A stretch of DNA of 64,000 nt from positions 2,356,001 through 2,420,000 of the forward strand of contig NZ_VAJL01000001.1 of assembly GCF_006175945.1 (NCBI RefSeq), written 5' to 3'. Below are positions 15,795 through 25,931 of this stretch, piece by piece. This stretch comes from Chryseobacterium mulctrae. GTDB lineage: Bacteria; Bacteroidota; Bacteroidia; Flavobacteriales; Weeksellaceae. How positions within the stretch are numbered: the stretch's first letter is position 1; each line of letters starts with the position of its first letter. Under the pieces are notes generated by a model. That model ran no database searches. It was not told where the DNA came from and saw nothing but the letters and a program-made list of their open reading frames with translations. A program made the position numbers and the translations under genes.

Positions 15795-16652
15795 ATCGAT
15801 TATTGCAACAAAATAGCCGGAAATGAAGGCATAAAACAAAGACAACGCTACACAAAAGTCAGCAAACAAATGGTGCGCAACACCTACAACGGAAAACATC
15901 CCAAGCGGGCAAAAGCGGCAAGGAAATCTCAAAGACAGCTCAAAACCATCGCCATGAGGCTGATTCGTGAATTGCAACGGAATTTTAATGCAGAACAGCA
16001 AGAATTTTATAAAGATTTAATGACATTGTACACCAAGGTTGTCACACAAAAAAGAAACGATGCCGATAAAATTTACAGCATTCACAAGCCTTTTACCCGA
16101 TGTATTGCCAAAGGAAAAGCGCATAGCCCGTATGAATTTGGGAATAAGGTAGGTTTGATCACCACTGCCAATAAAGGAAAGAAAATCATTCTCGGGATTA
16201 AAGCATTTTTGCAAACTCCATACGATGGTCACACCATTGAACCGCTTCTGGAACAAATGGAAAACAGTGGTCAGCAACTTCCAAAAGAACTCGTTTACGA
16301 CCGAGGAGGAAGAGGAAAATCGGAGATAAAAGGTGTAAAAATCTCAATTCCAAGTACTCCAAGAAAAACAGACACGGCTTATCAAAAGCAGACAAAGCGC
16401 AAAAAATTCAGAACCAGAGCTGCAATAGAGCCTATCATCGGACATTTGAAAACCGATTTCAGGCTGGCTCAAAATTACTTCATGAGAGAAACGGGACCAC
16501 AGATCAACGCATTATTATCAGCAACAGCTTGGAACATGAAGAAAATGATGGAAATATTGAAACAGAAAATTATTTTCTTTTTTTATCAGGTACAAATTAT
16601 CCTATTTTCAAATTTTATTTTAAAAAATAAATTAGAAAGGGGTTTTTATTAA
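15795..16652 (+). pseudogene. IS5-family transposase, C-terminal part
   Basis: It reads [20 protein letters not shown] then [20 protein letters not shown], then the DDE region [15 protein letters not shown] and the final block [20 protein letters not shown], typical of long IS5-type (DUF772-containing) transposases. There is no start codon before 15870. The preceding codons ([11 protein letters not shown]) are at 25427-25919, in the same frame when joined at ATCG. Confidence 0.85.
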
Positions 16653-16661
16653 GGAGCGACT
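15795..16661 (+). mobile_element. IS5-family element, 3' half (split by recombination at ATCG)
   Basis: It contains the C-terminal two thirds of a DDE transposase, opening in mid-gene at ATCGATTATTGC (15795) and ending with the inverted repeat AAGGAGCGACT at 16661. The missing 5' half, with the matching inverted repeat AGTCTCTCCTTAA, lies at 25317-25919. Joined at ATCG the two restore one 1470-bp element; AAAT follows this end (16662-16665) and precedes the other (25313-25316), as a target duplication would. Confidence 0.85.
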
Positions 16662-16745
16662 AAATATGAATATTAATAGTAGCACGAAAAATTTGAAGGC
16701 AGCCTTGATAATTAATGGGTTAAAAAAAATTATTAGTTGTGGTAA

Positions 16746-18461
16746 TCAAGAAATAAATTCTGAAATAGAATCCACAATTCTTTCAGCTGATGTATCGCAA
16801 AAATCCATACCGGAATAATCTGGGTTTAAACCACCAATAAAGGGAACGGACATATTATAAAACCTTTTGTTGGCTACCGCATAAATATCTTTATTTTCAA
16901 AATGATCTCCGATATTTAAACCTGTGACCAATAAATAATATTTGCCGGTAGAATCCTGTTTAACATTTGGATTTCCTTTCGATACTTCTTCTTCCGCTGC
17001 GTTATGATCTTTAAAATACAAAAATCCGGTAGAAATCAATTGATCATCTTTTAAACTTTCAAACGGAAAATCTCCATAATTCATCGGCTTTTGCCCGATT
17101 GCATCCACGAACATATTGTATTTTACTTCCTGAGTTTTTCCATTCTTAACAATTTTATACACTGCACCGAAATTTTCGTTAGGAACAACTTCACTATCTC
17201 GGTCAACGGAAAAGCTTTCTAACACATTTGCATGATACAAAGCCATTATTTCATGATACGAGGATTGAGGAAGCGAAGCAATGATAATAGAAATTAGAGG
17301 CATTAATTTACCTTTTAATCGCAACATATCTTCAGCAGGAAAATGCTTTGCAGGATAATTTACCGCATAACTAAATGCAGAAAGTATTTCTTTCCAAACG
17401 ATCGATTGATTTCTGTTTATTGATTTTTGTGCTTCAGTAAATTCTGCTTTCAATAATACAAAACTGTCTAACTCATTTCTGATTTTAAGCATTTCTTCCA
17501 CAAATTCTTCGATAGATAAATCTTTTACCCTGTCGTAAAATTTCTCATCCTTAACTTTCAATCGGTCTAAAAAGTTTTTTTTGTAGACATAATCTAAATC
17601 TACAAAACCACCATTTTTATTTTTGTATTGGTGTATCTCATCATTTGACATTGTCCATTTAGTATCAAATGCTTCATCTTCTGTATGAAATCTTAAAGCA
17701 GGAAGAAATCCACACAATGAATAAAGATGTATTTTAAAATCTGGACTTTCATCGGATAATATATATTCTAGTGAACCATCATTTAATTTCTTATAAGTTC
17801 CGTTGCAACGCGAAAGGGTTTTAATTGCATCAACGGCAGTAAGTGAAGCACCTCTAACCGCTACAGGAAAATTCATCGTACCTGCAAATTTTGAAGGCGG
17901 ATAAGGGGAGTCAAACCAATTTTCTACTTGTCCTTCAAAATCTTTATTCCACATATGGCCTGTGCAAATAACGAGAAAGTCCGACTTACAGGTTTCACTT
18001 TCAGTTATTATATGAAAACTATCTCCGTAATTTTTGATATTTTCAACATTAACATTTAAATACAATTCTACCTCAACACCCATTTTAATGATTTCAGACA
18101 CATATATTTTGAACTGTTCCTCTAAATAATTTCCTAATAGAAGTCTTGGAATTACTTCATATTCATTAATATTTCCACCCTTAACAAAATCTTCAAACCC
18201 TTGGTCAGGTTTTCTGTTGATATAATCTGTAAAAGACTCGAATAATACGGGCAACTCGTTTGCACTAACATTGGCCACGTGTTCTTCTTTACTGCCATAT
18301 TTTCCATAAGGCATACCTACTCCAAATCTTTCGTTTCGTTCAAATACAAAAATCTTTTTGAGTTGAAGTTTATTTTCATAAATATGTTTCAGCATAAAAA
18401 GTGCTGCAGGTCCGCCACCAATCAATGATATGGTTGAACTGTGGATAGAATTATTTTCCAA
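16746..18461 (-). CDS. FAD/NAD(P)-binding protein (NAD_binding_9-like)
   Basis: A 571-residue protein starting with a Rossmann dinucleotide-binding motif SLIGGGPAALFMLKHI (residues about 12-27), followed by FVFERNERFGVGMPYG and LVICTGH, the layout of the FAD-NAD(P)-binding family PF13454 related to hydroxyacylglutathione-type oxidoreductases. The substrate is unknown; cytosolic. It lies 155 bp downstream of katE in the same orientation, so it may share its stress-related expression. It belongs to the 10.1-kb inserted block. Confidence 0.75.
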   Translation of the reverse strand: MENNSIHSSTISLIGGGPAALFMLKHIYENKLQLKKIFVFERNERFGVGMPYGKYGSKEEHVANVSANELPVLFESFTDYINRKPDQGFEDFVKGGNINEYEVIPRLLLGNYLEEQFKIYVSEIIKMGVEVELYLNVNVENIKNYGDSFHIITESETCKSDFLVICTGHMWNKDFEGQVENWFDSPYPPSKFAGTMNFPVAVRGASLTAVDAIKTLSRCNGTYKKLNDGSLEYILSDESPDFKIHLYSLCGFLPALRFHTEDEAFDTKWTMSNDEIHQYKNKNGGFVDLDYVYKKNFLDRLKVKDEKFYDRVKDLSIEEFVEEMLKIRNELDSFVLLKAEFTEAQKSINRNQSIVWKEILSAFSYAVNYPAKHFPAEDMLRLKGKLMPLISIIIASLPQSSYHEIMALYHANVLESFSVDRDSEVVPNENFGAVYKIVKNGKTQEVKYNMFVDAIGQKPMNYGDFPFESLKDDQLISTGFLYFKDHNAAEEEVSKGNPNVKQDSTGKYYLLVTGLNIGDHFENKDIYAVANKRFYNMSVPFIGGLNPDYSGMDFCDTSAERIVDSISEFIS

Positions 18462-24552: not shown

Positions 24553-25125
24553 GAGCCTGTTTAAAAATTAAATTAGAAAAATTCGTACGGCGTTTATTTT
24601 ATAAAATAATCTTATAAAAAACTGATTGTCAGTTGTTTATGTTGTTTATTTTCCGTAACTTGTTGGTTACTAATCAATTAAATTACAGTGAAAAATTACT
24701 CGACAAACATTTCTGACAATCAGTGGCAATTTATAAAAAAGACTTTGAACCTCAATGACAGAAAGCGAAAATATGGTTTAAGAACCATTTGGAACGCCAT
24801 AATGTATTTGGTGAAAACCGGTTGCCAATGGAGGATGTTACCCAATGATTTTCCGAAATGGGAATTGGTCTATTACTATTACAGCAAATGGGCAAATGCA
24901 GAGGATTTTGATCTGCTTCTTTCGAAATTACGGGAAAAAGTCAGGTTGAAAAGAAATCAAAAAAGAGAACCGAGTTTAGGCATAATGGACAGTCAGAGTG
25001 TAAGATGGGGAAACAACCGCTCATTAAATGGTTTTGACGGGAATAAAAAAGTAAAAGGAATTAAAAGACATGTGGTGGTTGATAAAAACGGATTTTTATT
25101 AGCAATAATGGTTACTGTAGCCAAT
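24553..25125 (+). mobile_element. IS5-type insertion sequence, right end missing
   Basis: Same left inverted repeat and nearly the same sequence as 21386-22295 up to GTAGCCAAT at about 25125, where an IS3 left end takes over. It is a second direct copy bordering the TonB-receptor gene. Confidence 0.88.
24688..25125 (+). pseudogene. IS5-family transposase, truncated
   Basis: Identical in translation to the first 146 residues of the transposase at 21523-22287, then cut off after MVTVAN; the last residues of the open frame come from the IS3 end. It lacks the second catalytic Asp and the Glu, so it is inactive. Confidence 0.88.
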
Positions 25126-25316
25126 TGTAATCTTCCCGAAAAACCGGAACATTTAAAAATATAGTTTTTAAATTTGGAAGACAATGAAAAACAGTAAATT
25201 TTCAGAAGTTCAGATCATTAAGATTCTATCTGAACAAAATCAAGGCAAAACAGTGAATGAGATCTGCCGGGAGCACGGCATCAGCCAGCCGACATTTTAC
25301 AAATGGAAGAGTAAAT
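25126..25316 (+). mobile_element. IS3-family element, left-end fragment with orfA start
   Basis: The sequence starts TGTAATCTTCCCG, a typical IS3 terminus, interrupting the IS5-type copy. From ATG 25184 it encodes NSKFSEVQIIKILSEQNQGK then ICREHGISQPTFYKWKSK, the HTH_Tnp_1 domain of OrfA. It is cut by the next IS5 element at 25317. The rest of OrfA and OrfB are absent. Confidence 0.78.
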
Positions 25317-25919
25317 AGTCTCTCCTTAAACCACCTATAATTTACTGATTATTAGTATTTTGGGTTTAAAATAGCTTGTTTTTTATTGCAAGAATTTGTA
25401 TCTTAGAGCTTTAAAACCTTGCAAATATGTTGGGGAAAAATCCAGAAAAGAAGCCAGAATTATTCCGCCCAATGTTGGTGGATTTTATTGACCACGAGCA
25501 TGAACTTGTTCTACTTTCAGAAAAAATTGATTGAAATTATTTTGAGAAAGAATTTTCGTCCTTGTATTCCAAAGTGGGCAATCCGAGCCATCCGATTCGG
25601 TTTATGGTGGGTTGTTTGCTACTGAAACATTTGTATAATTTGGGCGATGAGACGTTGGAAAAAGCCTGGATCATGAATCCTTATATGCAGTATTTTTGTG
25701 GCAGGGTTTTCTTTGAACACGAATTTCCTTGTGACCCGAGTAATTTTGTTCATTTCCGAAAAAGAATTGGCGAAAAAGGTATCGAAAAAATCTTTGCCTA
25801 CAGCGTAAGAATGCACGATGCCAAGACGAACACCTCAAATTTTGTTTTGTCCGATACTACCGTTCAGGAGAATAATACCTCTTTTCCTACCGATGCAAAA
25901 TTGTGCAAAAAAGTGATCG
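25317..25919 (+). mobile_element. IS5-family element, 5' half (split by recombination at ATCG)
   Basis: It begins with inverted repeat AGTCTCTCCTTAA and runs to ATCG at 25916-25919, where the 16-bp cassette motif continues instead of the transposase gene. The complementary 3' half is at 15795-16661. The pair shows that the 10.1-kb segment between them was once joined through this element, that is, circular. Confidence 0.85.
25427..25919 (+). pseudogene. IS5-family transposase, N-terminal part with a nonsense codon
   Basis: From ATG 25427 it reads [20 protein letters not shown], and from about codon 37 [20 protein letters not shown] then [20 protein letters not shown], the DUF772 N-terminal part of long IS5-type transposases. 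Codon 36 is TGA at 25532-25534 where Trp is expected. Joined in frame to 15799-16652 it would give 448 residues, the expected family length. Confidence 0.85.
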
Positions 25920-25931
25920 TTTTTTGAGATT
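25916..25931 (+). repeat. 16-bp cassette motif, copy 7 (exact, fused to IS5 transposase)
   Basis: ATCGTTTTTTGAGATT. Its first four bases are shared with the IS5 transposase reading frame (codons ATC-G); it is the right junction of the 10.1-kb insertion and the left boundary of the helicase interval. Confidence 0.92.

Follow-up and report, generated by a model that had tools for sequence, protein, structure and literature searches.

A split IS5-family element in a Chryseobacterium cassette array points to capture of a 10-kb circle at an AT dinucleotide

Results

A cassette array that holds the two parts of one insertion sequence

The DNA analysed here (the window) is a 64,000-nucleotide stretch of Chryseobacterium mulctrae, positions 2356001-2420000 on the main contig, in a genome of 4.87 Mb. 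It contains an array of gene cassettes, within which an insertion sequence (IS) of the IS5 family lies in two parts at opposite ends of a large insert. The features that define this arrangement are listed below; types A and B are two isoforms of the IS.

1840-39540, forward strand: cassette array; units start with ATCGTTTTTTGAGA, with exact sites at 1840, 2112, 3161, 5942, 12409, 15130, 25916, 27980, 30085, 30739, 34807 and 39524 (n = 12)
28901, 31364 and 35079: looser matches to the array motif
15130-15794, forward strand: left neighbour cassette, ending in AAAAGTAAAT directly before AT; followed by other units in genomes G068, G081 and G046
15795-15796, no strand: left crossover dinucleotide AT (of ATCG)
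15795-16661, forward strand: 3' part of the IS5-family element, starting with ATCG; type A as far as about 16149 and type B between about 16159 and the right end
25317-25919, forward strand: 5' part of the IS5-family element, type A, terminating in ATCG, with a TGA at codon 36
25916-25932, forward strand: array motif at the right crossover, with AT at 25916-25917
26027-27778, reverse strand: UvrD-like helicase, carried by the right neighbour cassette, which has a different left neighbour on contig C2

The array motif has 14 matches in the window at up to two mismatches, against 0.17 expected. Its 16-mer ATCGTTTTTTGAGATT was found in 72 of the 148 genus genomes, the reversed control giving one match, and across the family in 85 of 320 genomes, belonging to three of 33 genera. 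The cassettes share one orientation and a common recombination site, as integron cassettes do.

As a first-pass annotation of this DNA had described, the 5' part of the IS stops at ATCG (25916-25919) and continues directly as the array motif ATCGTTTTTTGAGATTT, and the 3' part opens with ATCG at 15795, immediately after a cassette end. The insert between them, put at 10.1 kb in that annotation, measures 10,121 bp, and the inverted-repeat outer ends of the element (AGTCTCTCC and GGAGCGACT) are both present, with AAAT beyond each. The annotation had also taken the joined parts for one in-frame gene of 448 codons. The frame does run uninterrupted across ATCG, but a TGA at codon 36 (25532-25534, within the 5' part) rules out an intact joined gene; in another genome the intact transposase is an open frame of 448 amino acids (one full-length copy checked). 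Assignment to the IS5 family comes from an intact copy (L067) that scores 400.8 against a cut-off of 275 for NF033578. Both sides of ATCG are about 99% identical to the same set of full-length copies, which rules out a meeting of two unrelated copies at ATCG. A second copy of the split IS lies in the same genome at 3.41 Mb.

The flanking cassettes were found in other surroundings. A search of 173 genomes of the genus matched the left cassette in ten, C. mulctrae included; three of the matches are close, and six are weaker and partial. In the three close genomes (92-100% identity), AAAAGTAAAT is followed by ATCGTTTTGTGAGA (G068), ATCATTAAAAAA (G081) and ATCGTTTTTAAGAT (G046), all of which share AT. 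The right cassette, from 25916 on, has a different left neighbour on contig C2 of the C. mulctrae genome itself. The two sides of the insert are therefore independent cassette ends. Contig C2 is 81 kb long and overlaps itself at its termini by about 18.6 kb, the second end copy being noisier, so that it is probably circular, with a size of about 61.35 kb. Two blocks are common to it and the window, positions 25909-30758 at 99.90% identity and 35078-43810 at 99.99% (99.4% and 99.97% for the noisier copy). The interval between these blocks (30739 to 35079) is absent from C2, so that several cassettes, about 4.3 kb in all, were cleanly gained or lost, with the junction at AT.

The crossover narrows to AT

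Junctions were compared across genomes, omitting alignments that stopped short of the junction base or had partners too alike. Shared left ends are followed by 31 distinct right-hand contexts; 30 of these begin with AT, which continues with CG in 21 and with other bases in nine. In 26 pairs in which the same right cassette has different left neighbours, AT is kept in 25. Neither set consists of independent rows, since about 16 left ends (one of them the split IS) stand behind the 31 contexts and a 272-bp cassette recurs in many of the pairs. Bases 3 and 4 of the 31 contexts are CG in 21, GA in three, TT in two, and TG, CA, TA, GG and GT in one each; on the other side, base -1 agrees in 31% of the pairs. 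As AT is kept while the bases on both sides vary, strand exchange would take place within AT. The first-pass annotation had placed the crossover at or next to ATCG; the alignments bear this out and narrow it to AT, that is, to a 2-bp overlap as far as the letters tell. Such an overlap is a hallmark of serine recombinases. Beyond AT, the array sites show a weak preference for T at -4 (61% of 96 sites), and to the right ATCGTTTTTTGAGA, fixed by the search word, is followed by TT at 90-94%.

A serine recombinase at the array end

The most likely catalyst of the array is a serine recombinase encoded at its end.

43068-43673, reverse strand: small serine recombinase of the resolvase/invertase type, 201 amino acids, at the array end; proposed catalyst
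43727-43802, no strand: two inverted sites that read GTAGTATTTTGAGATTTT and TTTTCTCAAAATCTC on the minus strand; they lie upstream of the recombinase gene and are conserved in its close relatives

The product matches PF00239 (E = 4.6e-44) and carries YARVS near its N-terminus, whose serine, S9, we take to be that of the catalytic domain. The closest solved structures are a DNA-invertase (4m6f, presumably Gin; E = 5e-44) and gamma-delta resolvase (E = 1.5e-27). In the 148 genomes, motif and recombinase (E<=1e-40) occur together in 46, the motif alone in 26, the recombinase alone in 15 and neither in 61 (Fisher test, 5e-8). Their placement was examined in 150 motif and 100 recombinase places among the matches listed, a sample that includes fragments of split genes and counts one gene twice (by the self-overlap of C2). 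For 31 of the 100 recombinase places a listed motif lies no more than 10 kb away, always on the opposite strand (31/31) and mostly downstream of the gene (28/31). On ten contigs of known length with both features, a motif is present within 10 kb for 12 of the 16 recombinases, where random placement would give 0.25; this test left out G131:C27 (5.2 kb apart) and G012:C8 (27.5 kb), both from the same set chosen by the motif, and C2 itself (9.2 kb). The enzyme is a candidate that would bind and recombine at the motif.

As to a possible attI-like entry point beside the recombinase gene, the downstream sequence is common to one group of genomes but differs among most of the others, in many cases starting near the stop codon. 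Fragmented or stop-containing recombinase genes occur in several genomes (L108, L197, L184 and others), some beside arrays and some two per locus, as if the recombinase unit had itself been inserted and was then decaying. The closest plasmid-borne recombinases are those of C. shandongense (93%) and C. balustinum (88%). The C. shandongense plasmid is arranged likewise: restriction and Abi-type genes follow the recombinase, and two sites close to the motif lie on the other strand.

Alternatively, a tyrosine recombinase, be it IS91-associated, an island integrase or Xer, might run the array with the serine enzyme as a bystander. Three tyrosine recombinases are paired with IS91-type transposases in the window, as follows.

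6659-8769, 31717-33875 and 39869-41828: pairs of an IS91-family transposase and a tyrosine recombinase

The genome has 36 Phage_integrase places in all, and 26 motif genomes have no serine recombinase at the cut used. The overlap speaks against such an enzyme, tyrosine recombinases having overlaps of about 6-8 bp and the present one being 2 bp. Moreover, a single score of the IS91-linked type recurs at nine genomic places (two inside the window), a pattern to be expected of IS copies, and among 20 loci chosen by the motif the IS91-linked-type gene is present in one (L105), the integrase at 46954-48183 in none, and the serine recombinase in eight. We regard a tyrosine recombinase as an unlikely driver of the array.

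The element is a hybrid of two isoforms

The outer flanks of the two IS parts are the following.

16662-16665, no strand: AAAT beside the right end of the IS, where the type B element inserted after the FAD gene; without IS in Kaistella haifensis
25184-25316, forward strand: start of an IS3-type orfA (named by eye), broken at AAAT by the type A IS and continuous in genome G003

Compared with type A copies, the 3' part has three differences up to position 365 and 62 from position 366 on (87.6% identity). Compared with the type B copy of G259, it has 22 differences up to position 354 and two from there to the IS end, the comparison starting at position 232 because another IS interrupts the G259 copy there. 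These two-sided differences place a switch from A to B at about 16149-16159. Read from its letters, the IS is thus a hybrid of two isoforms or copies, A then B. Type B was found in G259, from another genus of the family, which is one of 23 matching genomes among the 320; the remaining matches are 77-90% alike.

The DNA to the right of the IS is 96.6% identical to Kaistella haifensis across the FAD gene and the spacer behind it, as far as the IS end; in Kaistella haifensis the spacer between the FAD gene and topoisomerase IB continues without any IS at AAAT. On the other flank, orfA of G003 continues uninterrupted past the matching AAAT. Since the outer flanks match two unrelated insertion points, the AAAT pair is not the target duplication of one insertion, and its presence on both sides is a coincidence. 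Of what the first-pass annotation had said about the element, the AAAT repeats are thus there, without being one duplication; likewise, both sides of ATCG do match the same copies at about 99%, while the supposed single transposase gene is a hybrid whose flanks come from two insertion points. That annotation had staked its account on the two parts not coming from different IS copies. Two copies did contribute, yet in a sense that favours a circle, the isoform switch lying about 355-365 bp from the ATCG junction.

A proposed history: a circle made by IS recombination and taken up once

We propose that a type A IS within an IS3-type orfA and a type B IS just after the FAD gene, in the same direction, once flanked the segment with katE, the FAD gene and the TonB receptor. 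Homologous recombination between the two, with its crossover now at about 16149-16159, would have released a 10,121-bp circle carrying one hybrid IS; in the order orfA, A-to-B hybrid, FAD gene, the sequence does close as a circle of this length. A site-specific recombinase, by our proposal the resolvase/invertase-type serine enzyme at the array end, would then have joined the circle to an array motif once, cutting at the AT of an AT-centred site in the hybrid IS that resembles the array half-site, and the motif would have remained on the right side, as for any cassette. We consider this history as a whole, with the serine recombinase as likely catalyst, probable. It retains the central idea of the first-pass annotation, a circle of 10.1 kb recombined once with an array motif, as the best-supported history (both flanks are cassette ends, and the hybrid closes the circle), and departs from it in that the circle would not have carried a single original IS copy.

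The IS site, AT followed by CGATTATTGCAA, matches CGTTTTTTGAGA at 8/12 positions, a score reached by 13 of the 2,052 half-sites beside AT in the circle sequence. With both halves taken together (8+7) it ranks first of the 1,026 ATs in that sequence, a rank examined after the 8/12 match had been noticed. A two-sided recombination site in the array was considered and is unsupported, because the left halves of 123 array sites average 3.29 against a background of 3.38, with no half-site enrichment. As the rank is post hoc and the array sites show no left-half preference, the one-sided figure of 8/12 is the safe one.

The same ends could have arisen without a circle, from an IS-flanked composite residing in the array that lost the 5' half of its left IS and the 3' half of its right IS through two separate deletions, each between an array motif and the ATCG of the IS concerned. 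Site-to-site deletions are expected of an array system, and C2 and the chromosome do differ by the clean gain or loss of about 4.3 kb. This scenario, however, requires two events at one tetramer, and it predicts that ATCG beside the FAD gene is followed at once by type B, whereas type A was found there for about 355 bp, so that an extra conversion would be needed; we hold it to be quite unlikely. A circle formed through one IS insertion with AAAT target duplication, the A/B mosaic being older than the insertion, is very improbable. It would account for AAAT on both sides, and five of seven full-length type A copies with both ends available (a count that leaves out the G012 copy) have matching 4-bp flanks of the form ANNT. 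One insertion cannot, however, give a pair of flanks that map to orfA of G003 and to the FAD-topoisomerase spacer of Kaistella haifensis, which rules it out as the origin of the AAAT pair, and among the genomes compared none was seen with orfA contiguous to the FAD spacer. Assembly error or chance breakage at ATCG is scarcely credible: there is a second IS copy at 3.41 Mb, and C2 overlaps itself with a noisier second copy, but the switch occurs at a 4-bp identity rather than at a long repeat, and both sides are cassette ends known from other contexts.

Several observations weigh against the proposed circle and its uptake by the serine enzyme. The empty site that the first-pass annotation had expected in other strains (15794 joined to 25916) was not found, the right neighbours read in the three genomes with a close left cassette all being different; nor was the circle or a donor molecule found in the genomes and plasmid records searched. 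Within the 26 pairs, agreement is higher at bases -2 to -6 (50-58%) than at base -1, which we take for the T-richness of cassette ends, and the interdependence of the junction rows and the post hoc rank of the IS site also tell on this side. At E<=1e-40, 26 of the 72 motif genomes have no recombinase, and of 20 loci chosen by the motif alone eight have one within the fetched stretch. The outer of the two sites upstream of the recombinase gene resembles the motif with GT in place of the array AT, and the plasmids of Sphingobacterium faecium and Rhizosphaericola mali, which carry an 82%-identical recombinase, have no array of the motif. Lastly, an unconstrained left half, as the background score of the array sites indicates, is odd for known small serine recombinases.

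Contents of the insert and other cassettes

Between the outer flanks of the two IS parts, the insert carries the following genes and elements.

16746-18461, reverse strand: FAD-NAD(P)-binding protein (PF13454), 97% and 94% amino acid identity (best segment) to Kaistella haifensis and Chryseobacterium sp. FF12, respectively
18617-20743, reverse strand: large catalase, katE/HPII type
21385-22301, forward strand: another IS5-family element (NF033580), copy 1, ends approximate
22397-24541, forward strand: TonB-dependent receptor
24552-25166, forward strand: truncated second copy of the 21385-22301 element, ends approximate

No close donor of the katE-FAD segment emerged: among the matches listed outside C. 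mulctrae itself in the 148 genus genomes, nothing exceeded 76%, and in plasmid records the best-covering place reached 76% over 21% of the query, with three further records at 80-90% on smaller pieces. The IS5-type element that breaks the type B copy in G259 (L227, contig C3) is 99.7% identical to the element flanking the TonB receptor of the window.

One short cassette recurs within the array.

12409-12680, forward strand: cassette of 272 bp with further copies at 1840 and 34807; the AT boundary is visible at its right end

Its sequence is identical at the three places, and it is also present in G068 (L104, 3973). At 12681 its right end meets DNA without the motif (ATTGGTTAATG), apparently through insertion at a secondary site. 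Directly 3' of this cassette end, an open frame (12682-13182) has a partial match to a thiol-activated-cytolysin domain (PF01289).

In several cassettes a related, GC-richer stretch (AACGTTTCGGGG, GGCGATGG and GGCATTTCGAAGC, in this order and interrupted) follows the motif after about 10-15 bp (window 5973-6010 and 39553-39595; L100, L104, L106 and L108). Two proteins, at 3769-5160 and 35810-38494, match a legume-lectin-type domain, the first below the family cut-off. As to cassette cargo, the helicase at 26027-27778 has GajB-type matches, and the C. shandongense plasmid (L223, 15790-22458) carries a restriction endonuclease and two Abi proteins; given this cargo, the arrays may gather phage-defence genes.

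Discussion

The array resembles integrons in consisting of short gene units with one site orientation and a common bounding site, in the recurrence of units in different neighbourhoods, in a recombinase gene near one array end, and in the occasional use of non-canonical sites. It differs from them in that the array-linked enzyme is a serine recombinase of the resolvase/invertase type with a 2-bp overlap, and in its site, which consists of AT and a single 12-bp half, with no conserved second half and none of the GTTRRRY/RYYYAAC core boxes of integron attC sites. No IntI-type tyrosine integrase was found at the array, the four tyrosine recombinases of the window being below the integron-integrase cut-off or without a match. 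Nor was an attC with paired simple sites and a GTTRRRY-type core, with the left halves of the 123 sites at background and the boxes compared by letters only. Because these two defining features, tyrosine integrase and attC, are lacking, we do not class the array as an integron. With the serine recombinase as its catalyst, it would instead be an integron-like cassette system with a different chemistry.

Known small serine recombinases, such as the Gin and Hin invertases and the gamma-delta and Sin resolvases, use a 2-bp overlap and half-sites of about 12 bp, and invert or resolve DNA at two-sided sites. The candidate shares with them its protein family, the overlap and the half-site length, and departs from them in that the array sites have no conserved left half. 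We know of no small serine recombinase that gathers cassettes into arrays, and the enzyme that appears to drive the present array is thus of a kind for which no such role is known. Searches of the literature by titles and abstract openings found no account of serine-recombinase cassette arrays, nor the letters of the motif.

The proposed circle also recalls the translocatable units of composite IS elements of the IS26 type, circles with one IS copy and passenger genes that derive from two flanking IS copies. The window shows a hybrid IS with two separate flanks, which may stem from such a unit. The element of the window, unlike IS26, belongs to the IS5 family, and capture would have been by an array site rather than by its own transposase. 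Elsewhere in the Bacteroidota, homology-independent integration of resistance genes is reported for Riemerella anatipestifer in a 2026 paper, whose authors suggest site-specific uptake and attC-like structures and leave the mechanism open (PMC13148043).

On balance, we lean towards the view that Chryseobacterium has a class of cassette capture that is undescribed in the literature searched: integron-like arrays run by a serine recombinase that would need no more than AT and one 12-bp half-site, tolerate poor partners and take up circles with a passable AT-centred site, here a 10-kb circle made by IS recombination. Junction swaps would offer a cheap and direct test of the mechanism, which would involve an AT overlap, a half-site and one small enzyme. 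If this view is true, gene cassettes are gathered by a second, unrelated recombination chemistry, on the plasmids and chromosomes of a widespread genus, and large IS-made circles have a route into a cassette array, which would link two mobility systems that are usually treated apart.

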